Assembly (NCBI GenBank): GCA_015499995.1
Contig: JADNRV010000258.1
Coordinates: 1 to 64,000 of the forward strand
DNA length: 64,000 nucleotides
Origin: Flammula alnicola
Lineage: Eukaryota > Basidiomycota > Agaricomycetes > Agaricales > Strophariaceae
Direction: 5' to 3'
Made by a program: the position numbers and the translations under genes. Below, piece by piece: positions 7,362 to 57,699 of this stretch; the stretch's first letter is position 1; each line of letters opens with the position of its first letter. The notes beneath the pieces were generated by a model that saw nothing but the letters and a program-made list of their open reading frames with translations, made no database searches and was not told the DNA's origin.

Positions 7362-8215
7362 GAATACACACGGGGCCGTCCCACGTTCCCAGAAGCAGAA
7401 CGGCCCCGTTCATCTAAACTGCGGAAAGTTATGTGCTTCGGCTCGATGCGTGTAATTTCTAGTATCTTCTTGACATATTTTTGGAGAGGTAGTTCTTTGG
7501 AAGCTTGCAAGTGAGCCTAGAATTATTTAACGAAGTCTAATCCAAACATGCGCGCCGCATCAATGATGAACACACGCACCTCGACACTATCCCACCCAAT
7601 GATCATAAAATAAGACCCAGGTACCTCCTTAATGCCACCCCAGAGCACTGGTGGATGTCCGCCTTTTACAAGATACAGATCCTTCTTAATGCCAGATACC
7701 GCAGTATTCAAATCCTCCTCCCAGCATAAATCTGCTTTCCTGGACTTCAACATCACTATTTCAGTGATAGGTGCGCTTAAAGCGTTCAGAGGGTTTGCAT
7801 CGACTTCGAAATGTCGAATAGAAAGTCCGGAGACGGGAATGTCCTGCAGATAAGTGATAAAAGAGAAATATTTCTCCTTTATAGCGCTCTTGCGGTAACA
7901 TCCATATGTTTCCCAGACTAACAATTTAAAGGGGAAAGAGTGGGATAAGCACATTGGATGGCGATGACGAGGTTAACTTACTTATAATTATGTACGCCCG
8001 TTGATCATCTTCCAGCGCATATCCTTGCATTACTCTTTACTCAGGTTATGATTTTATTCAGTCATCACAAGTACATTCTCCTGATGGACGTGTATCACTG
8101 ACCTCAAACATCCTTCGGACTTGCTGATGTATGATAAACTCGAATTTCCCTTTTTCACATCCTCTAGCACTCTTTTGTCGGAAGTGCCAAAGGATATAAT
8201 TTCTACGAGCGGCAT
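7362..8215 (-). CDS. Two-domain dimeric alpha/beta-barrel (ABM-like) protein
   Basis: The ATG at 8215 begins MPLVEIISFGTSD, the usual start of fungal antibiotic-biosynthesis-monooxygenase-like proteins. A second exon carries VMQGYALEDDQ and then IIIIWETYGCYRK, matching the VWETYEHH strand of the first domain. The second domain begins at APITEIVMLKSRKAD and contains LVKGGHPPVLWG and FMIIGWDSVE. A last exon (LPLQKYVKKILEITRIEP) is joined by an inferred 72-nt intron and ends at 7362. Dimeric alpha/beta barrels of this type are small cytosolic proteins, often stress-related or accessory to secondary metabolism. The two-domain layout is read from sequence; the first and last introns are inferred from phase and could be off. 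Confidence 0.65.
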
Positions 8216-9307
8216 AGAAGGGCGACAAAACTAGTGAGATGGACGTGAAGAGGCGGATGGGAGATACAGTTACAGTGGTAGAAATAAAAGGATGGGATAA
8301 AGAGGCCTACTTGCTCGATTTGCCTCAAAACAGTTTCCCAAGACCTCGGCTAATATTTTCATCAGAGGTACTTCCTTGGTACTACTCGTCGCAATCTGGC
8401 GTCGGTGTTCCCCGGTGGACCATGGGGCAGTCAATTGATTTTATCGCTAGTTCTGGGTCCATTTTCGGGGAAGAAAGCATCACGGTACCTCTTAAATATG
8501 AATAGCACATGTGTTATATGTAATCATAATTCAGCGCTCGACGTTCAAGTATAACGTTACGCTCGAACTACAGTCTACTAAGCACGTCTTTACTTATTAG
8601 AATCTTGGAAGTATATACAGTATACCTCATTGCCTAACGTTCTCGGCCAAACAAATTTTCACGACGTTGCTCCTGATCTGGGGAGCTACGCAAGTGATGG
8701 TATGTACGGTCCAAGTCTTGGCGACTTACAGATACGGTCCAAACAAAGCCGCGGAGGTAGAAGGCCGGTCCAGATAGCCGGACCCGTTGGAGAGAGTCTG
8801 AGAATGAATGAGAGAACATGACCATAAGTACAATAAGTACGCCGAACTGCCAAATTCACATCTGAACGCCGTTGAACGTTGAACGTTGCCAGTGGACGTT
8901 GGACATTGAACAGGGCTCATCGGCAGAGGCTATACTTGTAAAATTCCCCCTAATCCAGACTCACTCAAAAGTTCCAAGTCAATTATAGGAGTCAACATGA
9001 CTCACATTCTACCGCGATACTCGTACAGTACTAGGATGACGATGATATGGCAACTTGCCAACGAGAATGGGCGATCACTGACATTAAATGTGGCTGTGCG
9101 TGCGCCCGTTTCACAGTTGGTTGCAAATGTTGTCAGGACCCTGCATGCTCAGCGCTCAGATCTCAGACCCACAATTTATATGGCAGAAAAGGAATGTCCA
9201 AGTGAACTCCCTAACCTGGAATTTTTCACCTCCAACTCCTTCAAGTTCAGAAATAGCATATATCGCCAACGTTTCGCGTTTGTCCTGCTCATCCCTCCGT
9301 GTTATAA
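8216..9307. other. Intergenic stretch between divergent genes
   Basis: No gene is recognised. It contains a small minisatellite of gttgaac-type heptamers around 8872-8910. An 88-codon plus-strand frame at 8239-8505 lacks recognisable motifs and overlaps the upstream region of the ABM-like gene, so it is not called. Confidence 0.4.
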
Positions 9308-41167: not shown

Positions 41168-42432
41168 TTAGTTCTCTCCCAAGAACTTTTGAACGACGCT
41201 GAGGTACCTGGGGTGGAATTAGGCTGTTGTGGGAGAGGGGAGACATACAATACGCACTTTTCCTGATCTTCGTACATCGTCATATGGCTACCTTTCTCAA
41301 GCTGAACCCACTCGATATTGGGGACGCTTGTCATCCAGGGCTTCAGTGCCTTTTCCTGGGCCTGATCCTTCAGAGGGTTCCCTGACACCATCAAAATTGG
41401 GTAGGTAATCTTAGGCAAGATATCGATGATGTTCCAATCTCTGAGACTGCCAGAAGTCTTGAACTCAGACGGACCGATCCTATGGAGTCATAAGAATGTG
41501 GAAGAAAATAACAGCACAACAAGCCACTCACGTCGCCATCCACACAGTTGGATCAGCCGCAATCATCATGAAAGAACCCATGACATCTTCCGGCCACGGG
41601 TCGAGCGTACAGACGTGCTTCTTCATAAACTGCAAATTGCCGTTCTGGTATTCTGGCGAGTGAGCTGTACCTTCGTCCTCGTGCTTGCGCATCATGGAAA
41701 CAAAATCGGACGGGAACTTTTCCAGAAGATCGTTAGCGCCTTGCTCGAACAGCTTCATTGAGGCGGGAGTGCTGATCAGGATCAGTTTCCTTAAACCCTT
41801 TGGCTGTCTTTCTGCTGCAAATTGGGCAGCGAGCATTCCTAGAGCGACAATTAGTCTGGCTTGATTTGAAGTCGCGCAATATCGATGCGAAACGTACCTC
41901 CCCAACAGTGGCCTACGAGCGCGAAGTTGTCACTGATACCGAGGTGATTTAAGAGGTTTTCAAGTTCATCCATGAACAACTTGGGAGTCCAGAAGTCACT
42001 CGGTGCGTCCGGAAGATGGGTCGAGTTTCCATTGCCGATTTGGTCATACAGCACGATGGGCCTCCTGAAAGATCGTTGGCATGAGCGATATCAATTAAAG
42101 ATTAAAATATTAACGGCCTACATCTGGCTCGTCCATAGGTGTTTATGATTCCTGCATGAGATTTTAGCATATTAAATACGACACTCGATAATTAGACACG
42201 TACAGCATGCTAACAAACGTAGGTTGCGCTGAATTGAGTACATTTTCGATACCTGTGGTGTTCTTTGGGGTGCTTACTACTGGTGGTTGAGGCCAGGGCC
42301 TCCATGGATAGTAACCAAAGGAGTCTTGCCAGACTTGAGATTTCCAAGCACTTTGTACCAAGTTTTGTAGCTTTGACCATCGACGACAAAGGTGGCGGTC
42401 CCCGTCGCTTCTGGAATTGGAGAAGATGCCAT
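41168..42432 (-). CDS. Alpha/beta hydrolase, proline-iminopeptidase-like (S33) with Cys nucleophile position
   Basis: Six exons (42281-42432, 42122-42151, 41898-42064, 41532-41838, 41258-41479, 41168-41207) give 305 codons. The oxyanion-hole motif HGGPG is at about residue 45, then [14 protein letters not shown] and the nucleophile elbow [23 protein letters not shown], a helical cap, [14 protein letters not shown] (probable Asp) and [10 protein letters not shown] (catalytic His) follow. Family members normally have GHSWGG; here the nucleophile residue 114 is Cys. Proline iminopeptidases and amino-acid amidases release N-terminal residues from small peptides in the cytosol. It sits at the edge of the UstYa block and could process peptide products, which is inference from position only. 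Confidence 0.85.
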
Positions 42433-42930
42433 TGCTAAGTGGATGCGAAGATGTTAACCGACCTCGTCCCTTAAATTGATGTCTAAGAACGTCCCCTGTG
42501 AGAGTTGATGTCGTAGTGGACGGCGTGGAAGTGTAATGGCTGTGGGAGACTGACGAATATGCATCAGACAAGTACAATTCTGGGTGCTAAAGCTCCGGCA
42601 TCGGACATGTACGCTTTCAATCACCCATGTGGTTGTCATCAGCTACGCGTGATGTTCATCAAACCCACTCCCACTAAAAAGACGAAGAGAACCTTCGCTC
42701 TCTTCCACGAGAAGCCTGACCGTCATCATTCGCAGATGGATACACACTTTAAATTCGGGTAGATAACTGTGTACCTTAAGTTTAAGGGATTACTATAAGT
42801 ACCGACTGGCAATTTTAGTCCTCGGAATTTCGTATCGTCAAAACTTGCACAGCCCTGACCATATCAATCCAGCGCCAATGAATCCAATAATAAAGTTGAT
42901 AGTCGTCCTGGTATGTAGACTACCCCTCCC

Positions 42931-43605
42931 TCACTCGACTGATATATCCGCATCCTCCCATGCATGTGTCAGAGACACGCCCTTCCATTCGTCCTGATTG
43001 TCTTCTACGAACTTGCGAATTTTTGACCAATCCCGGCATCTATGAAGCTCTCCTTGCGTTCCATTTACAGGAATCAACGTCAGGTCCGGATGACAAAGGA
43101 GGCCCTGTCTGAGGAAGTGGATACAGTGGGTATTGTGCATGTAGCTTGTATCCACATTCGAATCGAGGGTTAGCCCGAGGCGGGCAACCATGTACATGTA
43201 TCGAATGGAATTTAAGCAATGGAGCTGGTGGTAAATGGCGAGTCCAAATGGCCTTCCCTTGGGTCCTATACGGGTAAGCCCAAGTTCAGGAGGAACCAGG
43301 GAGTTCCAGGCGTCGTTATCGGTCAGAGGATATGAGGTATCGTTCTTTTCGAACAATAGAGCAACCTCTCCATATTTTCCCGGCAGTTCTCTTGGGAAGT
43401 CGAACCCGACATATTCTGTGGAATTCGTTGTCATTAAAAGTATGAAAGGGGTATTTAACTGCCTACTATAGTGTGGCGATTCCAGAGCTTGAAATCTCTG
43501 GATAGTTCTGAGCAATTTAAAAGTATAGGTGGCTTTATGACCGACAAAGGTGACAAGGAGGACGATGAAGATAGATTGGATGATGGTTAAACGTCGCGCA
43601 CCCAT
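42931..43605 (-). CDS. UstYa/DUF3328 family protein, canonical
   Basis: Two exons (43467-43605, 42931-43415; 51-nt intron) give 207 codons. An N-terminal membrane anchor (IIQSIFIVLLVTFVGH) precedes FPRELPG, DNDAWNSLVPPELG and the paired motifs HQLHC (about 109-113) and HNTHC (about 140-144), followed by FLRQGLLCHPDLTLIP and HRCRDW. UstYa and UstYb are copper-type oxidases of the ustiloxin pathway, where the HxxHC motifs are needed for oxidative cyclisation of the peptide core. Both motifs are intact here. The closest relative in the window is the gene at 51160. Confidence 0.92.
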   Translation of the reverse strand: MGARRLTIIQSIFIVLLVTFVGHKATYTFKLLRTIQRFQALESPHYSRQLNTPFILLMTTNSTEYVGFDFPRELPGKYGEVALLFEKNDTSYPLTDNDAWNSLVPPELGLTRIGPKGRPFGLAIYHQLHCLNSIRYMYMVARLGLTLDSNVDTSYMHNTHCIHFLRQGLLCHPDLTLIPVNGTQGELHRCRDWSKIRKFVEDNQDEWKGVSLTHAWEDADISVE

Positions 43606-43788
43606 GTATCTCCTGAAAGGGATGGTTGAGGGTTGTGGTTAACTTTGCCATAAAGATCGTATCTTAACCAAGGACTTGGTGACCGTGAGGGACTTTTTAC
43701 TGGATGGCGCGCCTAACGGCCCGCAGCGGGTCGCACGATCGAATGCACGGGCCAGCGTCGGAAGACGAATCTTTCGGCAAGCGCCCAT

Positions 43789-43812
43789 CCGGGAAGGCGT
43801 TGCCCTTCCCGG
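43789..43812. other. GC-rich hairpin
   Basis: Inverted repeat ccgggaagg - ttccccgg-type: arms at 43789-43797 and 43804-43812 around a short loop. It lies in otherwise unusual GC-rich sequence between two genes of the UstYa block; role unknown. Confidence 0.4.
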
Positions 43813-44274
43813 CTCTCTGTCTACGTTTATGCACATACCCGATCTCGGAATCATTTGCTATCTTCGTCATGCTATTACATTGATACGCCAAATCATTTCT
43901 GGACCGGGGTACCCGTACAAGAATGCCAGTTCCGAGTACGACCATATTTAGGACACGTACTGCACCCTCGCGATCGTGGAGAAGACAGATGTAGAAGTCG
44001 ACACGCTGCGAGCCAATAGTGCGAATATATATCCGTGTTTCCGAGGCCTGTACATAAGACATTGTTTTTTTTTTTTTCCCAAGTTGCCCCCTCATCATCG
44101 GATCTAAGGATCCTGGAATCTCCGAGTCTACCCATATCAATCAAAGAAATCAAATATTGCCCTCATCTTTTCTCATACTTCTGTACTTCTGCGATGAATC
44201 CGGTGCAAGTCTAACTATTAATAGTCTCTTTGTTGCACTGGCAAACGCAAGCTTTCCCCTTGAATAATTTTGCG

Positions 44275-44638
44275 TCACAACTCCTTGTTAATAACTAGGA
44301 TTCTTGTCTTTGCGATCATAGTCAGTCGCGCAATTTTCATTGGACTCGTAGTATTTGAACTTACCTTTGGCATACGACGACAAGCCCACAAATGGATCCG
44401 GGCGAGGCAGGGATGCGAGGTCTTTTCTCTCGCAGGACTTCAAGAGTTCCGCAGCTTTGGAAGCTTGAACGGCATTTGTGAAGGAAAGAATGAGGTTTAA
44501 TGCGAGGAGAATGGACAACACCCATAGGATCCAGCCTCCTGGACCTGAAGTGGGCCGTGAGTGAACGCCGCCGGGGTGCAAAGGCTGGGTGCTTTCTTCG
44601 AAGTCTTCCTTGAGGGGAGTATATTCGACTGAAGACAT
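44275..44638 (-). CDS. Small single-TM protein in the UstYa block
   Basis: Two exons (44365-44638, 44275-44294) give 97 codons. A polar N-terminus (MSSVEYTPLKEDFEES) precedes one strong TM helix (WILWVLSILLALNLILSF), then CERKDLASLPRPDPFVGL and a short tail. The LPRPDPFVGL motif looks like a conserved end motif, and the topology matches the anchor half of UstYa-type proteins without the catalytic half. It could be an accessory membrane subunit, a truncated UstYa relative or an unrelated small protein. Function not known. Confidence 0.65.
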
Positions 44639-45006
44639 GGTTGCCAACTGACGCCAGAGATGCGTGGCTATAATATGCTAGCATAGGAATGCTGATTATA
44701 AATAACGGATCCCTGAAGAGCGCCCACGCGTGCCAGTATTGATTCATCACGATCCATGGGAATGAATCTAGGTGCAGCTTCTCTCTACGATCATTCTGAT
44801 ACGGCTACGAGCGGTCTTTTCCCCTTTCCTATTAATATTACATCTTCGGCACAGGTCAATAACCTCTCTGCGTTGCTGACAACTCGGACGTTTGCCATAC
44901 TGCGCCTTCGCGTCCAGACCTGGGTTATTTTATTCGGTGAGTGACGCATTGAAGGTGCGTTGTCGTACGATGTGAAGAGAATTCGCATCCCATATACTCT
45001 ATCTAG

Positions 45007-45695
45007 ATGTCGCATCGCATACCAACGCCTTTGCTTGTATTGACCATCTCTCTGCTGTTGTTCGCAACTATCTGTGAGATAGTGTGTGCCCTATACTGGA
45101 AACACTCCGGGTTGAACACTCGTTCCAGGAATGTGGAATCTCGTGCGTACATCTTCTGGACTAAATTTTGAAATTCTATTCTGACTTCTTGCACAAAGCG
45201 TTCGACAGCAATAATCTTCCTTCAGAGCTACCGCTGAGCGATGCATATGCTGCAAAGCAGGTGGCAATGCTATGGGACAATCATAACTATGAAGCCACGG
45301 CGTCACGACAATGGGATACGCTCTTCCCGAGAAACAAGGGCAGGATTAGTCTGGACGACAGCGGACGACAGTTTCAGGTTGCAATGTATAGTCACCTGGA
45401 GTGCGTCAACAAAATCCGCCTGGCGCTTGTGGAAGCCAGGGATCTCTTGAAAGGCACCTCACTTACACCGACTTCGCCTCCATTCCAAGCTCGAGAGGAA
45501 ATTGATGCTTGCTTTGGTCAAATTCGTCAAGCAGTCCTTTGTGCCGGAGATTTCACGACCAACCCCACTGTCCTAACATTTACGAATGACTCTTTGGAGA
45601 AATTTGATATCGATACGGTCGAAGTTGGTACATATCACAGATGTAGGGACTGGACAGCAGTGCGTGAAGCAACCACAAGGATGAGTATAAAATAA
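45007..45695 (+). CDS. UstYa/DUF3328-like protein lacking the His motifs
   Basis: Two exons (45007-45142, 45199-45695) give 210 codons. An N-terminal TM helix (LLVLTISLLLFATICEIV) is followed by LPLSDAYAAKQ, RQWDTLFPRNKGRISL, then YSHLECVNKIRLALVEAR where canonical members have YHQLHCLNSIR. The second motif position reads DACFGQIRQAVLCAGDFT instead of HNTHC. The closing HRCRDW is kept. Architecture and Cys positions match UstYa but both copper-type HxxHC motifs are gone, so it may be a non-catalytic partner or have another chemistry. It is co-oriented with the next gene at 46736. Confidence 0.85.
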
Positions 45696-46735
45696 TAACA
45701 TTGTTTGTTTCCATACTTACATCATGGGTGGTCATCAGAATTTCGAGAGCGCTTCCTTAGAATATTATGGAATTTAGGTAACTAACTTAATTCCCTATGT
45801 GAATGTAGACGATACATCTGCAATGCACTTGGATCCAGGTAAATACGCTCCATAATCTATCCGGGATGGAATACGTATGTACGCACTTTGGTAAAGTAAC
45901 TTTCATTGCCTACCACAGATATACTTAGGTTTGAGCGCACATGTATTGTCTTCGATCTATTCTTTATCAAGTTCCCGAGCCCTCCTTAAACACCGCATCA
46001 TAAAAACATTTCAGGTGCGACACTTGGAGATTGAGATACTCCACGCAGTAGCCATGCCAATCATCAAGCTCAAGGCATAGTACTTCTCGTTCTCTTGATT
46101 CGTATGTATATATGCTTCGCGGGCTGGACGTTCCGGGATCCTTCATCTATATCAATGATAAGAACCGCTACCCTCCTTCGAGCTGGAACTTAACCGTCAA
46201 TTCCCGTGCTCAGCGTTCATCATTCATATGCGTCAAACATCCGATGGTGTCCAAAGATAATTCAAAGGATTCCAAAATGAATTTCCCATGTTCTAAGTGC
46301 ATACTTAGACTCTACGTAAGTACATGTTTCGTAGGGCTCACATCCACTTCCCAAAATAGCATATCTTTGAGCCTTCCATTGTAGCACGTATCTTTAACCT
46401 CACAAGTCCCGGTGATGCCTGGTGACGCCAAGTCATCGCCTCAACAATCTAGATCGATTTTTACCCGATGGGAGGCATTGCGCAACTCCAATCAATACAT
46501 GTGGAAGCAGTCACTCCGGGTGCGGGAAATACTGTAATATGTAAACCTCAATTCGTGTAATTTAATACTCCCACCAAATTCCCAACCTTCACTCTTCTCT
46601 ATTTCGCTGTGGGCCCTGGGGACATTATTATTATGATGGTATTTATCAATAATTTGCACTAGTGGTAATTATCCCTGGTCGCTAAATCCATTTCCCTAGC
46701 TGCCAAATGGTCTCACGGGCGCCATCTCTCTTGGC
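45696..46735. other. Spacer between two UstYa-like genes
   Basis: One 90-codon plus frame at 46112-46384 has no recognised motif. Otherwise nothing coding is supported. Confidence 0.35.
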
Positions 46736-47340
46736 ATGGTTCTGCTCATTGTCTGTTCGGCAACTCTTGATGTAGCCACATTAACGCTGCTCGTCCAGTC
46801 TGGAAAGAAGCTCATGTGTCAGTCGTCCTCCATAGTCATCTAATATCTTGCTAATACAGAGAACACCTAGACGCCCAAATACCAAGCACAAGTTCGAAGC
46901 TGTTTAATCCTAATCGTCCCATACAAAATATCGCGACGGAATTCTACAACGATCGCTACAACATCACGGCGCATTCGGCCTGGGCGTCGTTAATCCCAGC
47001 AAACAGAGGCATAATGCCGGTCGGCCAAGAGGGAAAGAAAATGCAGGTTGCCCTTTATCAGCAGCTTGAGTGCATTAACAATCTGCGCATCTCGATGCTC
47101 CATCTTTATAACGTTGCAACTGCAGAGCCACATATTCCTCCCGACTTCGCGAAGTCGGAGATGTGTTTCGGGGTGTTGCGCCATCTTCTTCTGTGCGCTG
47201 CGGACCCAACTATGGAGCATACGACGCCCGAATATCATGCCGACGGCACAGTGGATGAGAAGAGTACTATACATGGCCTCGAAGATACTCACAGGTGCAG
47301 AGATTGGCGACAGGTTTGGGACTTGGCAAACGATAAGTGA
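46736..47340 (+). CDS. UstYa/DUF3328-like protein lacking the His motifs, second
   Basis: Two exons (46736-46815, 46860-47340) give 186 codons. A short hydrophobic N-terminus (MVLLIVCSATLDVATLTLLV) leads to HSAWASLIPANRGIMPVG, VALYQQLECINNLRISML in place of HQLHC, SEMCFGVLRHLLLCAADPTM in place of HxxHC, and HRCRDWRQVW. It pairs with the gene at 45007 in having Glu-Cys instead of His-Cys, so these two form a distinct subgroup. Probably a membrane-anchored lumenal protein of the same pathway. Confidence 0.85.
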
Positions 47341-48037
47341 CTGTATCATAGTAGAATACCTACATACTGTACATCCATTGAATCGAGTCAAAGTATAACA
47401 AGGATGATTTTAATTTCCCTTCTCTGTCATAGTCAATGAGAGCCATCCGCAGCCAGCTGCAGTATGCTCGTCTACAAGTGAGCTTGGCGTTTACATCAGT
47501 GCGGTATGAAGTTACCCGAGAACAATATTTCGTAACAATATCACTCCGTAGAGTATGCATCCTAAGAGTAGCGTTTACCGAGCTATGCGCCCCTCATCCA
47601 TACCAACATACCCAACACACTGAGGCACAAATCTGCATGATACCTATCCAATAGAATATTGCTCCTAAGTGTTTTTTCCGTCATTGTAATGGAAACCAGA
47701 GCATGCTCCCAAAGGCCTCGGAACTTGCTTTATCGGCAGTACATCCAGATCCAGAGCGCCTTCTTACTACACCAAAAGTACGAATTTATTAATATTGTTC
47801 ATGCACCTTCGCATAAATCGAACGAACAACCGATAAAGCTATGGACATCATATAGTTATTCGGAGATAATCCCAGAACGCCGGTGCCAACAACTACTTGA
47901 CAGAATCCTTCTACGGAGATAAATTATCGAATATTGGGGATATTGTTCTATACCCCTGCAAGATGCTGAAAAGTCGAGGCGTGATATTTGCGTCAGCTTT
48001 ATGTCAGTAGCGGACATAATAACTTACAAGCGCCCCC
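47341..48037. other. Downstream spacer of UstYa-like gene and repeat gene
   Basis: Convergent 3' ends; no supported gene. A frame at 47659-47922 has no motif. Confidence 0.35.
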
Positions 48038-49106
48038 TTAGACGGTCGCCGACGCGGTTTCTATGGCTGAAGTTTATATAACACATGGGGCAAAGCCTCA
48101 ATGGACAATAGACGGAAAAAAGTTTATATATCAGTGTGGCGCAGGGAATGAGTTAAAGTGTCTACTTACATGCACTTGTATCGTGGTCCGGGATTGGCGT
48201 CCTAGAATCTAGGATTCAATTGAGTACAGATGAGCTAATCTGCAGATACAACCCATAATTACCTATCTTTCCTGTCGCAACTGCGGCATGCGCGACTGGC
48301 ATTTGGTCAGATTGGCGTCGAATCCGTAGATTCAATATATGCACGTACAAGCCCGTGTAGAGACAACTTCATGCTCCACTGTCTTATCTCCTGCTCTCCA
48401 GTTAGGAATTATTGAATCGTAGAGAGGATTTTATCAATGATTACCTAGCTTTCCTGTTGCAATATCGGCATTCACGACTGAAATTTGGTCAGACTGGCAT
48501 CGATGTAGAGACTCAATACAGCAACGTACAAGCCCGTGCCGAAACAACTTCGGGCTCCACCTTTTTATCTCCTGCTCTCGGGATAAATATTATCGAATTA
48601 TGGAAAAGGTTCCCTTGAGAATCACCTAGCTTTCCTGTTGCAATCTTTGCGTTTACGACTACATTTTGGTCAACCCATGTAGACACACGAATTTGACCTT
48701 CTACTTACAGGCACGTTCAGAAACCGCATTGGCTGGCTTAGCCTCTGATGGTTTTTGGGTAAGTACGCGGAGGTCACGAAGATCTAGACCAATAATCACC
48801 AATATTTCCGGTTGGAAGCTTGACTTTTGCGACTGCGGTTGTCTCTGAGTTTTGCCCGAAAGAATGAAAAACCATATTAAAACGTACAGGCTCTCTCAAT
48901 GTTGCGGTTCACTTTATTTAGTGTCAACATTCACTCGTCTAGAATAATTCATGCTGTGAACCTACCAGCCAGTTCAGCTACGGAAGAGACATTAGTTTAT
49001 GACAACATATATATTCGCCCTGAGACTTACAGACTGGGGACGCAAGCGCTATACCAATAAGCGCAAGAATGAGGGCGGCAAAGTAAACCGATCGGAAAAT
49101 AGCCAT
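48038..49106 (-). CDS. Secreted repeat protein, candidate RiPP precursor
   Basis: Twelve exons join to 144 codons including the stop: 49031-49106, 48966-48977, 48888-48911, 48800-48832, 48709-48744, 48626-48658, 48530-48571, 48445-48477, 48349-48390, 48263-48295, 48170-48208, 48038-48066. Exon 1 is a signal peptide ending LIGIALA-SPV. The rest is four related repeats of about 25 residues, each made by one 33-nt exon (for example FVNAKIATGKL, FVNADIATGKL, FAHAAVATGKI) and one 36-42-nt exon (GDKKVEPEVVSARA, GDKTVEHEVVSTRA). All repeat exons are phase 1-1. Signal peptide plus repeated short cores is the layout of UstA-type precursors, and four UstYa-like genes surround it. No KR Kex2 sites and no Tyr in the cores are seen, so the RiPP role is inference. 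Confidence 0.7.
48240..48912. repeat. Tandem exon-pair repeat array (about 190-bp units)
   Basis: About 3.5 head-to-tail units share both exons and introns: cctagctttcctgttgcaat, gcacgtacaagcccgtg, atctcctgctct and ttggtcagattggc recur at about 180-190-bp spacing. The two central units are most alike; the outer ones are diverged, as expected from internal unequal crossing over. Confidence 0.8.
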
Positions 49107-51159
49107 TGTGGTGGTCAGGATGCTCAGTTGCGTCTCGATAGTGTCATACCCGGTAGTTCTTATATCAATGCGGTGTACACTGATCTATACAAATAGAAGC
49201 CATCGGGTTATTGGGTGCTGGTAGGAGTCAGAAATGGTTGCCATAACGGGACTCTCAGAGCTCCGAGAATATCCTCGAGACAATTTTGTTAAGTTCGGTT
49301 ATAAATATTACTTGCGCGGACGTGTATCAGAATTGTGTTTTTCCATTACTTTCGATCACTAATAATGAACAATCCTCGGCTTGGCTGGATACATACCAGA
49401 AGCCTCGGCGGCGTGATGGATCTCAATCCATGGCAAATGAAACACCATCACCCAAGCAAGATAGCAAATTTGGGGATGACTGAGGTAGACACCTTGGGCT
49501 TGAGAAAATTTACTATCCCAGAACGTGCTCATGTGGGATCGCACTGCTGAAGCATATGTGGACCATCATCACGATCATGATCGTCAAAAGACGTGCCATT
49601 CACGTCGAGGACTTGAAATATGTTCAATGTCAGAAGAGAAAGGCTAGTTGGAAGCCATAACCGTGTCTGGCGTTGGGCGCTGTTCGAGTTTTTCCTTGTG
49701 GTCGATTCGACTTTTCACCTCGCTCTGCGTACATGTACCACACGGAGTCTGATGGAAGGACTTACGTGTAACCCCGGAGCTCGCACTTGATTATGCCCAT
49801 CACTTGATAGGACATTACGGATTGAATAGAGTATAGAGCGGTATTCATGACCGCATTTCCCGATTATAATTGAGAATTCACTGAGCGCCTGTCCGATTGC
49901 TGACAAGATGCGAAAATGCATCTGGGAAAATCCAATTCCTCAAGATGCCACTGACACTGGCACAGCGTGATAAATTGTTCACTGGGAAGAAAGTTCATAT
50001 ATGACACACAACCTTGAATGAAGTTGCTCGAACTGTCGTCAATGGCGGACGTGAGCCATCTATTGAACCTGTACGCTCCAACTGATGTCTTGTGCTCCAT
50101 ATTCAGAGTACAATAGCACCCGTTCAAAAATAGGCGGCAGATTTGGGATAGAAGGACAGGGAGCCCGAGTGTGAGAAGCTTAAGGTTGCATCAGTATGAT
50201 AAGCCAGCGTCCGCATACACAGCCAATTTCCCGATGATGACCGCACGGATCTGCGGGAACTTGAATCTTGTGCATATGCATCACCTAGGCTCCTTGAGCT
50301 CTGAAAGCGCTCTTCTTCCAACAGTCATGCGGTCGGTTGATAAATCTGCTTTGAGTTCCGGGTAGAATCAATCTTCCACGCGTGAGGGTTATTTAGAAGG
50401 AAAGAAAGGCACCATTAAGGACATCCTAAATCCCCACCTGAACTACGCGTAGATTGAAAATTTCCCAAAATCATTGGCTGACAGTGATAGTCTGACTTCA
50501 AAGTTTGACTCAGACTCCGAAGTATGGGAATGATGCCATGGTTTTCTCTACGGATGCTGCGCATCCGGTCTCTCGCGCTGCTCGGGAAGATTCCGAGATA
50601 TCATGGTGATGGAAGGATGGAAGAAGGTAGGCCTCTGAAGACAATAAATTTCCTCCCCACCGAAATGTAGTCGATATGGATTGAAGAGCGCCCATCGCGA
50701 TATTATTATGTTACCACGGTGTGGGAATTTGGAATATTCTATTTATAACCTCTAGAGATACTCGGCCAAGCCATGGTGCTTGCGCGCTTGGAGAGGAAGA
50801 GCAGAAATGGAAGCCATGGGCGTATGCCTATGAGCGCAAGTAGTCGGATTTTTTTAAATTCACTTCTTCTCTTCAGAATCTATGTTGGGGAGACGTGTGG
50901 GAATTGACAGAGTATGATAGATGCAGGACTTCGGAGAGAACGGTTACCCAGTTATAAATCGGTGGTACCAGGGTACCGTACCGACAAGTCCGGGACATTT
51001 TGGATCAGGAAATTAGAAGGGGCAACAGTCAGAAGTTCATCAATGAAGCCTCCCATGCACCACATCGCTTGTATTTTTGGTCTCTTAGTAGTTTTCCCAT
51101 CTATGCATACTTATAAGTAGATACTAGAGACACAAGCACCGGCTTTGATTCTTCGCATC
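49107..51159. other. Long spacer inside the UstYa block
   Basis: Two kb between the repeat-protein gene and the last UstYa gene, which are transcribed divergently. Frames at 49864-50127 and 50124-50321 (minus) and 50171-50365 (plus) have no recognised motif. A decayed gene is possible but unsupported. Confidence 0.35.
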
Positions 51160-51865
51160 ATGCGTACTTCCATCAATCCTGGGATGTCATGTTTAGCCTT
51201 CGCTGGTTGGACGCTTGCCCTGCTCATTGCTTCTTGCTTCAGAGGCTTTGCTACTCTTACATTATCCAATGCAGTCAAGCAATTCGAAACATTGCAGTCG
51301 CCAATATACAGTATGCAGCTCATGTTCCATTCACTTCTTCCCGTTTATAATAATTCGTCCGAACCCTGCAGGTTGGAAAGCGCCCGACTTTCCACAAGAG
51401 TTACCAGGACTTGACGGGCCCGAAACTGCCATGTTCTTCACGAGAAATGACACCACCCAATATCCGCTAGACGATAACGACGCTTGGAATACCATAATTC
51501 CTCCCAAGTTAGGCGTCTTTCGCATTGGTCCCAAAGGCAGACGATACGGATTAAGCCTTTACCACCAACTTCACTGCCTGAACTCCATCCGGTACGACTA
51601 CATGGTTGCCCGACTAGGGCTTTTAGAAGATGTTCCCAACGAACTATCACATCATGATACACATTGCATGCATTTCATCAGGCAAGGTATCATGTGCCAC
51701 GCAGATACGACTCTCATTCCACTTGAGGAAGAAAGCGGGATAGAGACGTCGGGGGAGTGGCATAGATGTCGAGGGGATTGGACAAATATACGGACATTTA
51801 TAGAGGACCTGCAGGCGAAGTGGAAAGGTGTACCGCTCACACATGCATTTGAGGATGCGGACTGA
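51160..51865 (+). CDS. UstYa/DUF3328 family protein, canonical, second
   Basis: Two exons (51160-51310, 51372-51865) give 214 codons. A hydrophobic anchor (AFAGWTLALLIASCF) precedes FPQELPGLDGPETAMFF, NDAWNTIIPPKLGVFRIGPK, YHQLHCLNSIRYDYMVARLG, HHDTHCMHFIRQGIMCHAD and HRCRGDWTNIRTF. Both HxxHC motifs are intact. It is a close paralogue of the minus-strand gene at 42931, with the same intron position. Expected as a membrane-anchored oxidase acting in the secretory route on a small peptide. Confidence 0.92.
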
Positions 51866-52861
51866 TAGAATAGACCAAAGCAAGGCTTCGTTTTAATGTC
51901 CTAGAACTAATAAAGGCCAAAGCGCTGTGTTCCAGTACGGAGGAGGAGGATTAAGATGTAGGGAAATCATATGTTTCCCAGCTGCACAATCTTTCCACTC
52001 CGGTAGAAAGTCGGTCCACTCCTCCCCGGGAGGGATGTGGGCAGCCGCTCATGCTGGCGGCTCCTCCAACGGCTTGTTCTGATCCATATATGTAGTTTGC
52101 TCGGTCCACTTACACGCGGTGCCCATCGCGTCCCACGGCGCGGGGCCACGGCGCAGTCCCACTAAAATTTTATGATTAAATTGCCACACTCTGACGCCAG
52201 CATCGCATAGCGAACAGGGTTCGGGTCTTTTGGATCCGGTACTATGTCCTCCACGCGCCACTCCTTATGATTCCAGAAAAATTCCCCTTAGAGCATGGTG
52301 AAGTTCTCCATATCAGCGCATACCATCATGGATACGATAGAGAAACCGGAGCGGCGTAACGCGACGCTTGAAGAGTGGGAAGGATCGGAGTCTCTTATAT
52401 ATAATTTTCTTCCTCGTAATATCGATGAACTTGAACCAGGGGGTATAGCACAAATTTCAAGCAAGTCTAGCAGAGTTGGGAGCCTGTACTTCCGTGGTAT
52501 AGGCCAGAAAAGAATCTAAAAGGTGCGCAACGGATGTATACAGCTTCAAGTGTCAGTGTGACTTTTGCAACAAGAATGATAGGATTTATACTATTTTAGA
52601 TCATGTAATGTCTTCCAAAGCTTCGCGTCCTTTGAGTTTTGGTGCACACGGCGCAGTAGGTTGAGAAGCATGGCGCTGTAAGATTAGAAGAACATGGGGA
52701 CCTTCATAATCTAAAGACAAGTATGTAGAATTGCAAGGTCTTAAAATGATAGTAGGAAGAGGTACCGAAACCCCAACCCCAACAACGACCAACTGTCCTG
52801 TCGATGCCTACCGGTACACATTCGCTTTTCAACCATCCGGCACAGAACGACAAGGACCACT
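51866..52861. other. Spacer, no gene recognised
   Basis: A 74-codon frame at 52295-52519 lacks any motif. Nothing else is supported between the UstYa gene and the convergent hydrolase gene. Confidence 0.35.
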
Positions 52862-55319
52862 TTAAATTACGATTTCACCTCCACTATGATAAATCGCTAA
52901 TTGATTGATGGCCTTGCGAAGCCGTAAATCGCTGTTGAAAACCAGCTGAGTGGCCTCGCTGGTCGCGCCCGATTCAGGGAAAGTCTGTAACTCGTTCTTA
53001 CAGAAGGACCCGTTCACAGGCGTGTTGCCTTCAAAGTAAGCGCGCTTTAGCTTTGCTATGCAGAGGGATGGATTCAAAAGTGAGCTGTGCTGTTGGCCGC
53101 GTGCGTTTAGTATGGAGTTAGATATGGAGAGACGTGTGCGTACCCCAGGCCCTTCTTGGATAATCAGTGACGAGGAATGTGCTGGCATGAGTGCGTTGAC
53201 ATGCGAGCCGCTAGCTATCGGTGTTATTCTTGGTATATATCAGCTTTTATGTCCGCACAGTTCTTTCAAAGTCACCTACGGGTCTGCCTATAATATTATC
53301 ATCCATCAGCACCGACCAATCAAAGCTAGTCAAAGACAACGCTCACCGTGTTGCTTACGATTAACATCGGCCTATCCAAAGAAGCATTCCAAGGACCGTT
53401 GAACCGCTCGGGACCTCTCGCAGGCCAGTACTCACACCCGCCATCGCGTTCAACAACGCCAATGCTCAATCCAAAATGCCTCGACACTTCCTTCAAGTTC
53501 AAAATTCCCTGATCGGCAAGGAGCTCAGGCGTCGGCATGTCCTCAGGGCCTTCGGGCGGCGGGGCATCGAGGCACGCCACCGCCTGGCGCGTCAAGTCGT
53601 AGAGCGGGATGGGGCCGGGGATCTGTTTGTCGTAGTCTGCGATCAACGCGTTGAAGATGGCCGTGCCGTTCCCTTGCATGGCTGCGTGGAGAGCAGCGGC
53701 GCTTGCTCCCCATCCCGTAGGGCGCATGAGGTAGAGAAGCATCATGCCTGTTTGATCCGGGACAATGAGTATACGTATACATAATGGGAATACATTGAGG
53801 ACACTCACCCCGAACTGCGCCAGATGTAAGGAAGCCCGGTCGTCTACCATCTGGAACGGGCAATGGATGGTGCACGAGGCTGTCGAAGAAATCTTCCAAC
53901 CGCGCCTCGATATTCTCCCAAGGTTCGCTCTTCTCCTTAGCCAAGGGACAAAGGGACGGACCGGCCTGCGTTAAATGTAAACCATGCTCTTGGATGCGGC
54001 TGGTAGTTTTCTTACCTGAGCACAATCTTTGAGGAAATATTCATATGCGGCTTCTGCAGAGGAAAGCCAGTTATGCGCCCACTCGTGAGTAGGCTCATCT
54101 GCGAGCATTCAGAATGATATGACACATCAATTGGAAAGTACGCACTGGCCCAGCTAACGGGGTCCACAATTCCGTCGATGACAATGTATCCGACGCGTTC
54201 CGGGAACCTACCATGGGTTGAAGTCAACTCTCAATAGATCGGGGAATACGATATAGCAACATACATATTGACAAGCCATACACCAATAATGGCTCCATAA
54301 GATGCGCCATGGAAGTTCCTAATCAAAGGAGAAGGGAAAAATTAGAAACTTCATATAAATTCATGCAGGGATGTCGTACACTTTGGCATCTTCCCCATCG
54401 AAGACTCGTGTCATGAACTCCAAGTCCCGTGCCACAGTCGCGGTACCCATGAATTTCAGCTCATCACCCATGACCTCTCCACAGCGCTCAGCCTGACTCT
54501 GCTTGATGACCAGAAGCTGTCTAAATTGCTCTACGACATTCTCCCTGAACAAAGGCGAAGAGAAGTTGGCCATCGGTGGTGTAGTGATGCCGCCTTCGAC
54601 GACCGTGTTTGAGATATAGAGCTGGTGGGTAATGAAGTCGGGGAAACATTGCACTGCCGGTCTAAGAATAAAATTAGTTGGTTCGTACGTTCATCGGTAA
54701 GAAATGATTGTACTTCGACTGCCCAATACCCCTAGGATCAAAGCCAACGAGATCCCAGTCGTCCCCAATAAGTGCAGCGTATTGCGGTCCTGCGACTGCG
54801 GCGAGGCCCATACCTGCACCTCCAGGGCCGCCTAACCAGGGAGATTCATGTCAGCTTGCACAATGCACTGGTCCGATAAGCCATTGACTAACCCGGGTTC
54901 AAGAAAACCGATCCTTTACTAGGAGTCTTTTTAGCGCGATAGGTTGCAAAAGCAATCGACGCGGTACCCCCAGTCTCCACGTTAAAATAGTCCTTTGGAA
55001 CGCTTTCAACCATAAGCATATTGCGCAAACCAGTTGAAACGAAAACGTACATGACCGAGCCACAGTCTACGTTGGGAAGTGAGCCGGGCGGGCATTCCTC
55101 CCAAAGGATATCTCCCAGTTTATTGGATGTTTGACTCGGACGATGGCCAGAGACATGTTGTAGGTAATAGACATGAAGAGCCACGAACAAGAGCACCGCA
55201 ATAATGGCTGTCCTCAGCAACCGCAGCGGGCGATAACCGTGCGAAATATTTGCATGTGGTGAGCGGGTCGCGTTTGGTTGTTTTTCAAGGGAGTCCATCA
55301 TGGCCAGAGGGGTAGCCAT
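52862..55319 (-). CDS. TAP-type S33 alpha/beta hydrolase, membrane-anchored; possible defect near catalytic Asp
   Basis: The start gives a cytosolic leader, a TM anchor (TAIIAVLLFVALHVYYL), then ILWEECPPGSLPNVDCGSV, VPKDYFNVETGGTASIAFA, SVFLNPGGPGGAGMG (oxyanion site), GDDWDLVGFDPRGIGQSKY and the nucleophile elbow NFHGASYGAIIGVW. Further exons hold EPTHEWAHNWLSS, DQTGMMLLYLMRPTG and ARGPERFNGPW. The TAP C-terminal domain has ITPIASGSHVNALMPAHSS and LLNPSLCIAKLKRAYFEGNTP. Such enzymes are tripeptidyl- or prolyl-aminopeptidases. The exon that should give DPxTP after LIVSNT cannot be joined in frame: GCT GAT is present but followed by a shift. An alternative ATG lies at 55355. Confidence 0.75.
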
Positions 55320-55355
55320 CAACAGCGAACTGGGCTCAGCGTTGCATATATACAT

Positions 55356-56406
55356 TCTCCGTCCTTCTGAAGCCGTGGCTAATCAGGATTCCATTCTGAT
55401 GCCCTGTTGTCGTGGAACACGGTGTCAATTCCCACATTGTCAATCAAGAAGCGAAGGAAGGCGCATGGGCGTTGGCGTCGAAAGGTACTCTGTCTTTTCA
55501 TATCATCAGCAAACTCATGGTCTAAAATTGTATCTCGTTCAAGGGATATTTTCAATACCTATGTAGAGTACACATATACATACGTCTCAATACGTCTTTG
55601 AATTTGGTTAATCCGATTTGAATCCGATGACTTTGTACCTCTGTGATCAGCCAGTACATAGATTAGATTAGATGAGATGACAAGGTGGTTGTGCTTGTCC
55701 ACGACCGTGACGCGATCCAGAATACTGCCCTCTCTGCTCTCCTCATGAGCTTTGAACGAACGTTTGAACCTTCGACCTCCAAGGTCAGCCTGCGAGTGAT
55801 ATCAGACCACGCGAGCCATTTTCTCGTCGAGCTGTTCTAACTCCCAAACGACCAACAAACGACAGAATGAACATTTGATTTGCATTTGATATACCCCACT
55901 GGCAGGAATACAACTGTATATGGAATCGCGACCACCGGAACTGCGTAGGCTTTTTAATCGTACACGAATTCGAACTGGCGTACTACCAAGAAAAACACTA
56001 CACACCAGAATGGACATACGGAACGCATGCCAAAAGTGACGACTCCGAATCACCCTCCGTCTTACGGTTTTATAGAGTGGCATCATGAAGCGCTGTCGTT
56101 CAATCGTCCGAATTTCCTTCATCGTGGCTGAGATGTTTCGAGGATTACTACATAAAGCATTTTCGGGCGTGGAAACGTTGCATGTCTTCTCAATTAACCT
56201 TGGGATATCAATTCTTCTTGTGGGATGGGGGATAGGGAGTCAACGGTACCGGTGGCAAGTAGTACGAGGATCTCATCAACAGCGACCCTACGTCTGATTA
56301 ATTTCGAGGTCTGGATATTGTGTACATCACATTACAGAAAGTGTGAGGTAATTATTTAATTGTACAGTGTCTATATGATACAGTTACGATAGGGGGTCGA
56401 AAGCGT
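55356..56406. other. Spacer, one unassigned frame
   Basis: A 106-codon minus frame at 55802-56122 is basic (MPLYKTVRRRVIRSRHFW) with no recognised domain. Otherwise nothing is supported. Confidence 0.35.
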
Positions 56407-57420
56407 TTATTCGTCGAGAGCGGGCAATACGGACCATTTCTACACATTAACCATCAGTGATATTCCTCTCAGTCAGCTGCACGAAATAAACCCACCTGGT
56501 TCGGGTTCTGATAACTGCAATCCCACATTTGGATCTATATACAAAACACGGGATCAGTCTCCATCCTCCATGACATCCCAAACGACAACTCGGACTTACC
56601 CTCGTATCATCCTGCACCACACCATCCGTCAAGTCCATGCACTTTCCTGGCAGGTGCATCCAGCTGATATGGTCCTCGGGCACGATGAGCTGTACGTGAT
56701 CCCAGTGGTAGAATTGCTGGTTCCGCGCGCCGTCGACACACGTCCAAACTTGGAGCTTGGCACCGTTGGAGGTGTTGCCGTCCGTGACATCGAGACATTT
56801 GTTGGTGCCTACCAACTTGAGGGTGCTGCCGTCGAAGAACCACGTTTGAAGGCGGTTGAGCCCAGAGGAGAAGTTACATTCCTGGAAGCAGATAATGAGT
56901 TGAGGATTGGGGGGGAGGGGAATATCTGGGGAGAGGAAGAACGTACGTCGATAGTGACGGGTGCTCCGTCGTAGTTTTTTGCGCTGATGCATTGCATAGA
57001 GTTTGCGGATGGGTAAATGTGGTAATTCCCAGCCTTGGGAACGGTAGCCGGGCATGCTGGGTTACTATCGCGGCCGGGCTGGGGAACATTCGGGGCGTGG
57101 TATAGGGTGTGGTTGGAGAACTGCCCAAAGAAACGACGATGTTAGCGAGGACGAGATAATGGAAGGAGAGAATCACGTACGTCATACCAGCAGAACTGAT
57201 CGTCTCCTTTCGTAGGGTCATTATCCCAGTACCAGCACTGGTAGTATTGACTGAAGGTGGAGGCTTCCACTAGCCTATAAGAGCCGCCCCCGGATGGTGT
57301 CAATTCAGAAGGGCAGGCGAGGTACACTGGGATCCATGGTGCTCGGGGTGAGAGAGGTGAGGAGAGCACTAGAGGGAGGAAGAACAAGAGCGGAAAAGCG
57401 AGTACGTTAATAAAAGTCAT
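56407..57420 (-). CDS. Secreted ricin-B-type lectin domain protein
   Basis: Five exons (57181-57420, 56947-57120, 56600-56881, 56496-56534, 56407-56439) join to 255 codons. A signal peptide (MTFINVLAFPLLFFLPLVLS) precedes a Cys-containing N-terminal part (ACPSELTPSGGGSYRLVE, CWYWDNDPTKGDDQFCWYD). The beta-trefoil repeats have QCISAKNYDGAPVTID, KLVGTNKCLDVTDGNTSNG, KLQVWTC, GKCMDLTDG, IQMWDC and NQKWSV. The QxW motifs are the ricin-B hallmark. It should bind galactose- or related glycans outside the cell. No attached catalytic domain is present. Confidence 0.85.
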
Positions 57421-57699
57421 TGATTGAGTGTGTAATTGAGACTCACCTTCTGCACTTCAGAGCGTCTTATATAGCTACCGTTCTGGCACCAGAGGGTGCT
57501 GGCCGGACCTCGTTCAGCTGAGGCACTGCTCCAACAGCCAAGCGTAAGGCATTTCTAGCCCTGTTATTTATTGACAAAGATCAAAGGGGCTAGAGGCAGG
57601 GAATAAGCGCGCGAACCTTGGTCGAACCCGCTCTTTCTCCGACAACGTTTAAGTGGATACGATTTCCAAGTCCCGTGCCGCTTTCGACAACCGTGATAT
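57421..57699. other. Upstream region of the lectin gene
   Basis: No gene seen; it contains the lectin promoter. A GTATATAAG-type TATA sequence (tatatag on the plus strand) lies about 50 bp upstream of the ATG. Confidence 0.35.

Follow-up and report, generated by a model that had tools for sequence, protein, structure and literature searches.

A candidate ribosomal-peptide maturation cluster of UstYa-family genes in the mushroom Flammula alnicola

The UstYa cluster and its secreted repeat gene

Within 9 kb of a contig of the mushroom Flammula alnicola lie four genes of the UstYa family (PF11807/DUF3328) and a gene for a secreted protein of tandem short repeats, and the reading we favor is that they form part of a ribosomal-peptide maturation cluster. 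We regard this reading as about evenly balanced; its chances are raised by a counterpart locus elsewhere in the genome, on contig C767, and lowered by the processing sites missing from the repeat protein. The window analyzed here is a stretch of 64,000 nucleotides (JADNRV010000258.1, positions 1 to 64,000), referred to as contig C177; the assembly comprises 861 contigs and 74.4 Mb. From 41.2 to 55.3 kb the window carries genes for four PF11807/UstYa proteins, one small membrane protein, a secreted repeat protein in 12 exons, and two alpha/beta hydrolases, in the order hydrolase, UstYa, small membrane protein (with an LPRPD motif), two UstYa without the motif His residues, repeat gene, UstYa, and last a hydrolase of a type different from the first.

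41168-42432, minus strand: proline-iminopeptidase-family alpha/beta hydrolase, multi-exon (TIGR01250; the model lacks a short stretch)
42931-43605, minus strand: UstYa A, exons 43605-43467 and 43415-42931 (PF11807, 64.6 bits; both HxxHC motifs)
44288-44638, minus strand: small single-pass membrane protein, 116 residues, LPRPDPFVGL motif (35% identity to a C767 protein)
45007-45695, plus strand: UstYa B, exons 45007-45142 and 45199-45695 (PF11807, 39.1 bits; motif His absent)
46736-47340, plus strand: UstYa C, exons 46736-46815 and 46860-47340, 5' end uncertain (PF11807, 42.0 bits)
48038-49106, minus strand: candidate peptide precursor, a secreted repeat protein of 143 residues in 12 exons (uncertain at the 3' end)
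51160-51865, plus strand: UstYa D, exons 51160-51310 and 51372-51865 (PF11807, 68.7 bits; both HxxHC motifs)
53100-55319, minus strand: membrane-anchored alpha/beta hydrolase, 3' end outside the model, doubtful cluster member (Abhydrolase_1)

The repeat gene contains three families of direct repeats, spaced mostly 181-182 bp apart, and a repeat scan of 40-53 kb gave four matches at the gene and none in each of three plain shuffles, the only kind of shuffle against which significance was judged. Hand splicing yields a signal-peptide-like exon (by an in-house rule, not SignalP) followed by 11 short exons, and all of the introns are GT..AG. All 11 introns are in phase 1; ten are 50-55 bp long and the last is 103 bp, and a CTNAY branch-point-like string lies close to the 3' end in four of the nine introns listed. 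Each of the four repeat units is an exon pair, a 33-nt core exon with a 36-42-nt spacer exon, and the encoded cores are FAKVKLPTGNI, FVNAKIATGKL, FVNADIATGKL, and FAHAAVATGKI. Phe opens every core, and its codon is split by an intron in all four repeats. Neighboring units are 70-85% similar in their core exons, 52-81% in their spacers, and 56-81% in their introns; similarity extending into the introns is expected if whole exon-intron units were duplicated. The signal-peptide protein with four tandem repeats described in the initial annotation is thus present, with one gene copy per haplotype. We note that a mini-open reading frame (ORF) of 28 residues, signal-peptide-like and ending IPHEHVLG, lies 0.5 kb from the repeat gene (49599-49513, minus strand).

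The other haplotype of the locus is contig C852 (225,356 bp), and its copy of the repeat gene has a public model, P0001 ('hypothetical protein BDZ97DRAFT_1923140 [Flammula alnicola]'). This model has the same exons except the last, keeps two introns unspliced, and terminates within the last intron of the hand model, with a stop ∼100 bp before the 3' end of the latter; either 3' end may be the correct one. A coding reading of the retained introns was not adopted, because P0001 itself splices out the corresponding introns in other repeats. Between haplotypes, the exons of the repeat gene differ by six substitutions (three silent, three replacement) with no gaps, and the introns by 14 changes plus 2 indel bases. 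The two contigs are 98.4% identical at 38.0-47.4 kb, 95.4% at 47.7-52.7 kb, and 98.9% at 52.7-57.7 kb. On a finer scale they are near-identical at 42000-46500 and 54000-57500, with flanks that differ by 1-5% or more, a mosaic that may reflect recombination or assembly phase switching.

UstYa proteins, small membrane protein, and hydrolases

The reading frames of all four UstYa genes pass the PF11807 cut-off of 25 bits. As a set of family members the four therefore stand as initially annotated, but not as a set with intact copper motifs: A and D keep both HxxHC motifs, whereas SHLEC and EIDAC replace the pair in B, and QQLEC and KSEMC in C, such that all four His residues are gone. Both Cys residues and an HRCRDW block are retained in B and C. 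In the characterized member CctR, two HxxHC motifs bind two coppers in a membrane-bound dimer, and alanine mutants at the conserved His and Cys residues are inactive (excerpts of PMC12435403). Because CctR needs these residues, UstYa B and C should, presumably, be unable to oxidize by its copper mechanism. UstYa A and D resemble CctR in the HxxHC pair and in an N-terminal membrane segment; CctR differs in being a homodimer that acts on a nonribosomal cyclic peptide (PMC12435403, in part), and in having the copper ligands that B and C lack. AlphaFold models are poor (mean pLDDT 52.4 for A and 56.1 for B), and at this low confidence each places two long helices around the motif positions; a PDB sequence search with UstYa A found no relative at E values up to 1.

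Between haplotypes, UstYa D is conserved, with eight silent changes and one replacement, UstYa C has six silent and three replacement changes, and the exons of A and B have none. A provisional first exon was removed from the UstYa C model on account of a 2-nt gap in the allele; the result of the haplotype count is the same without it. Homologues were sought in three protein searches, for the repeat gene, for UstYa B and C, and for the small membrane proteins; the search with the repeat gene covered ∼5.8 billion protein sequences and depends on shared five-residue words. For UstYa B and C there were none outside F. alnicola (two of 2210 candidates, both from this species).

The small membrane protein was found where the initial annotation had put it, and the haplotypes differ by one silent change, leaving the protein identical in both. 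It matches no Pfam family at E values up to 1 and has no homologue outside F. alnicola in the protein search (one of 114 candidates, an F. alnicola record). Genome searches with either this protein or its C767 relative missed the other, so further copies may lie elsewhere.

Two alpha/beta hydrolases were reported to flank the cluster, and both were recovered at the family level. The left one, whose spliced model has a short gap inside it, scores 191 bits against TIGR01250 (proline iminopeptidase; cut-off 167.65) and aligns over nearly its full length. It differs from known proline iminopeptidases in clustering with UstYa genes and in its nucleophile, which is Cys (GHCWGG, 41881-42090) where PDB entries 7a6g and 3wmr have Ser. 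It resembles the hydrolases of C767 (52% over 65 residues), a copy of which reads GHSWGG at this position. The right hydrolase carries a membrane anchor and scores 30.4 bits against Abhydrolase_1 (cut-off 25.8) as a partial spliced model; its separate exons have no Pfam match. From its motifs GGPGGAG and GASYG we take it to be tripeptidyl-aminopeptidase-like. Its membership in the cluster is doubtful, since there is a related partial copy at 57.6-58.1 kb. A gene with a Ricin-B-type lectin domain (56450-57061, minus strand) adjoins it.

Iminopeptidase-type hydrolases have 25 matches in the genome, merged by eye into nine gene places, and four of these, at three loci (C177, C767 twice, and C212), are within ∼3 kb of a UstYa gene. 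At the C545 and C601 hydrolase loci, no UstYa motif was seen in the 9 kb examined. Proximity at three of eight hydrolase loci has a probability of 4e-7 to 1e-6 under random placement, a figure that breaks down if a linked pair was duplicated.

Counterpart and other UstYa loci

PF11807 has 23 exon-level matches in the genome, which hand grouping with presumed alleles merged reduces to seven UstYa loci: C177/C852, C767, C732/C778, C556:744k/C720, C556:769k/C713, C445, and C212. The C767 locus has four ingredients in common with the window: a hydrolase of the iminopeptidase type, a set of four UstYa genes, a relative of the small membrane protein, and a gene for a secreted product. Its order is iminopeptidase-type hydrolase, LRRPS membrane protein, UstYa, LPRPD membrane protein, mini-precursor, His-poor UstYa, UstYa, second hydrolase, and UstYa. 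The candidate mini-precursor (L011:5841-6043; C767:77840-78042) has two exons and encodes a secreted peptide of 46 residues, MSSLSKFLCLLVLITANVVSSAPVETVDCDAEDIARR followed by GSDNLALCF, in which one RR site precedes a single nine-residue core; no second copy was found in the genome. The LRRPS protein (L011:2474-3384) has the motif LRRPSHYMNL, which resembles the LPRPD motif of the small membrane proteins, and matches no Pfam family at E values up to 0.01.

A precursor-like secreted gene stands beside UstYa genes at five of the seven loci, the window locus included, according to gene models made by hand without transcripts. At C556:744k the candidate (L016:7936-8140; C556:747435 on; also on C720) has two exons and 46 residues, MTKFFTFAIFVLSLVVAGMALSATALPIEEAETRR followed by QDADWLKSSGN, an 11-residue tail after RR, and lies ∼3 kb from a His-poor UstYa gene. 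C445 has two tandem related secreted genes (L019:6589-6950 and 8134-8495) 1-3 kb from a canonical UstYa gene, with Trp-containing units HAWIRR, SWLRS, and GWVRK; their 3' ends are uncertain, and one model has an early stop. The C732/C778 candidate is also built of repeats, each exon carrying a single unit of the type ADAVEKPHAWGGYSEKR (L014:2700-3290, minus strand, on C778, and near-identical on C732), ∼1 kb from UstYa; its first exon holds a 26-bp tandem duplication.

In a control scan, signal-like starts with a P[VIL] motif, which was broadened between two versions of the scan, numbered five in 81.5 kb of UstYa loci vs one in 112 kb of control sequence (p ∼0.05). One of the five (L016:9494) meets a stop; the C767 gene escaped the motif scan because its motif spans a splice, and the C732/C778 gene was wholly unflagged. 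A strict one-intron scan for mini-precursors was discarded as a count: it found the C767 gene, missed that of C556, and gave false matches including a wrongly spliced repeat gene. About nine 70-bp repeats are present at L017:455-1130 (C556:764954-765629), ∼3 kb from UstYa; this array near C556:769k was set aside as a precursor, as no signal-peptide-like start is present there.

These loci also bear on the His-less UstYa proteins. A milder loss of motif His is seen in C767_2 and C556_744, where HQL[RK]C is accompanied by a second motif minus its first His; the two group together in a UstYa tree (support 97/96), as do C767_3 and C556_769 with canonical motifs (94/92). The tree has ten rows, with C212, C445, and C732/C778 left out, and four of its seven inner branches are poorly resolved. 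Canonical and His-poor genes share neighborhoods, adjacent at C767 and ∼25 kb apart at C556, and our guess is that the two kinds of protein might dimerize with each other. We think it somewhat unlikely that UstYa B and C are instead dead copies being lost. The loss of all four motif His residues, the lowest PF11807 scores among the four window genes, and long branches in the tree are what such decay would lead one to expect. Yet both frames are open in both haplotypes, silent changes outnumber replacements in UstYa C (UstYa B, identical between haplotypes, is uninformative), the Cys residues and the HRCRDW block persist, and a separate His-poor type recurs at two loci.

A possible pathway, its rivals, and their meaning

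If the cluster does mature a ribosomal peptide, the repeat protein would enter the secretory pathway and a protease independent of KR/RR would cut between repeats, perhaps at the recurring xRA/F junction. UstYa A and D, as copper oxidases anchored in the endoplasmic reticulum/Golgi membrane, would then oxidize the cores that begin with Phe, possibly by pairing with the His-less B and C in mixed dimers. An accessory role alongside the oxidases may fall to the small membrane protein, and the hydrolases may trim or turn over the peptide. The single UstYa-peptide pathway of the initial annotation gains from the same gene kinds at C767 and from the secreted genes at five of seven UstYa loci, and we keep it at the balanced strength given above. 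Also in favor of the ribosomal-peptide reading are the iminopeptidase-type hydrolases close to UstYa genes, the conservation of UstYa D between haplotypes, and the minority of basidiomycete repeat proteins with DUF3328 neighbors that is described below.

The dikaritin-type layout that had also been proposed fares less well. Like the clusters of ascomycete dikaritins (ustiloxin, phomopsin, asperipin-2a), the window has several UstYa/DUF3328 genes beside a signal-peptide protein of short repeats. Peptidase S41 is the peptidase of the ustiloxin and phomopsin clusters, and Tyr in the core is a feature of characterized dikaritins. In contrast, the repeats of the window have neither Kex2 KR/RR sites nor Tyr, and two of its UstYa proteins are without the copper-ligand His residues; its repeats are exon pairs, an exon layout known here for the window gene alone. 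Peptidase_S41 has no match in the genome, with the same search positive in 10 of 14 control genomes, and none of 28 tyrosinase matches is on C177 or C852. For these two reasons the locus is kept apart from the dikaritin clusters; it may operate in the same way, and by a loose definition alone it would count as one of them.

A second comparison is with the Kex2-processed repeat proteins (KEPs) of basidiomycetes, 103 of 1680 of which have a DUF3328 gene within 15 genes (excerpts of PMC7329392). The window gene resembles those of Agaricomycetes in being secreted and made of tandem short repeats (excerpts of PMC7329392, PMC6339444, and PMC9769878). KEPs are defined by their Kex2 sites, however, and the window gene has the signal and the repeats without such sites; the C767 and C556 candidates have a Kex2-type site but a single core.

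Several observations weigh against maturation of the repeat protein by these enzymes. As the initial annotation had cautioned, KR sites and Tyr are absent: the 143 residues include one KK and no KR, RR, or RK, and Tyr, Trp, and Cys are all missing after the signal. No homologue of the repeat gene was found outside F. alnicola among the ∼5.8 billion proteins (one of 87 candidates, an F. alnicola record), and its three silent and three replacement changes are too small a number to demonstrate purifying selection. With no signal peptide seen, the left hydrolase would stay apart from a peptide in the lumen, unless that peptide passes through the membrane. In the stretches read, no precursor-like secreted gene was seen beside C212 or C556:769k, and signal-like starts counted regardless of motif number 13 at UstYa loci vs 10 in the control (p ∼0.12); the link between secreted genes and UstYa loci is a post hoc one and suggestive. 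Peptidomics of Agaricomycete repeat proteins describes many pyroglutamated peptides, with UstY/DUF3328 unmentioned in the excerpts available (PMC9769878).

A plausible though unlikely alternative is that the UstYa pathway is real and has another substrate, either the product of a different small peptide gene within or close to the cluster or else a nonribosomal compound, with the repeat gene a bystander. The best-studied member, CctR, hydroxylates a nonribosomal peptide (PMC12435403, in part), neither Kex2 sites nor the residues that are known targets of modification occur in the repeats, and the mini-ORF offers a second signal-peptide-like start nearby; nonetheless, 38-58 kb contains no further precursor candidate with a usable gene model, and other UstYa loci also adjoin secreted multi-exon genes. 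Least probable is a chance neighborhood of a structural or other secreted repeat protein amid UstYa duplicates with no common pathway, which would fit a repeat gene known from F. alnicola only and the weak control statistics, but not the recurrence of the combination at C767, where the rare small membrane protein and the hydrolase family are again present.

Returning to the ribosomal-peptide reading, a broader form of it, which we consider distinctly unlikely as it stands, is that mushrooms have a modular UstYa kit distinct from the ascomycete dikaritins that is plugged to unrelated precursors and oxidizes Phe-led cores instead of Tyr. The kit would comprise copper-binding UstYa proteins and His-less partners as mixed dimers, an LPRPD accessory, and an iminopeptidase-type hydrolase, and its precursors would span a 46-residue single-core peptide to multi-exon repeats without Kex2 sites.

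We found no description of the window cluster in the open-license literature, a coverage that leaves out most subscription journals. Among the papers seen, ascomycetes are the only fungi for which ribosomal peptides of the UstYa type are established, and mushrooms may or may not use UstYa on peptides; cyclization of such repeat proteins 'might hardly occur in Basidiomycota' (PMC7329392, section 7, seen in excerpt). Several UstYa loci in the F. alnicola genome come with concrete candidates for a substrate, and UstYa B and C are a natural test for the function of His-less copies. With their single cores, the C767 and C556 candidates would, judging from the method as described, be overlooked by tandem-repeat mining; single-core and Kex2-less precursors alike would evade mining that demands tandem repeats with Kex2 sites.

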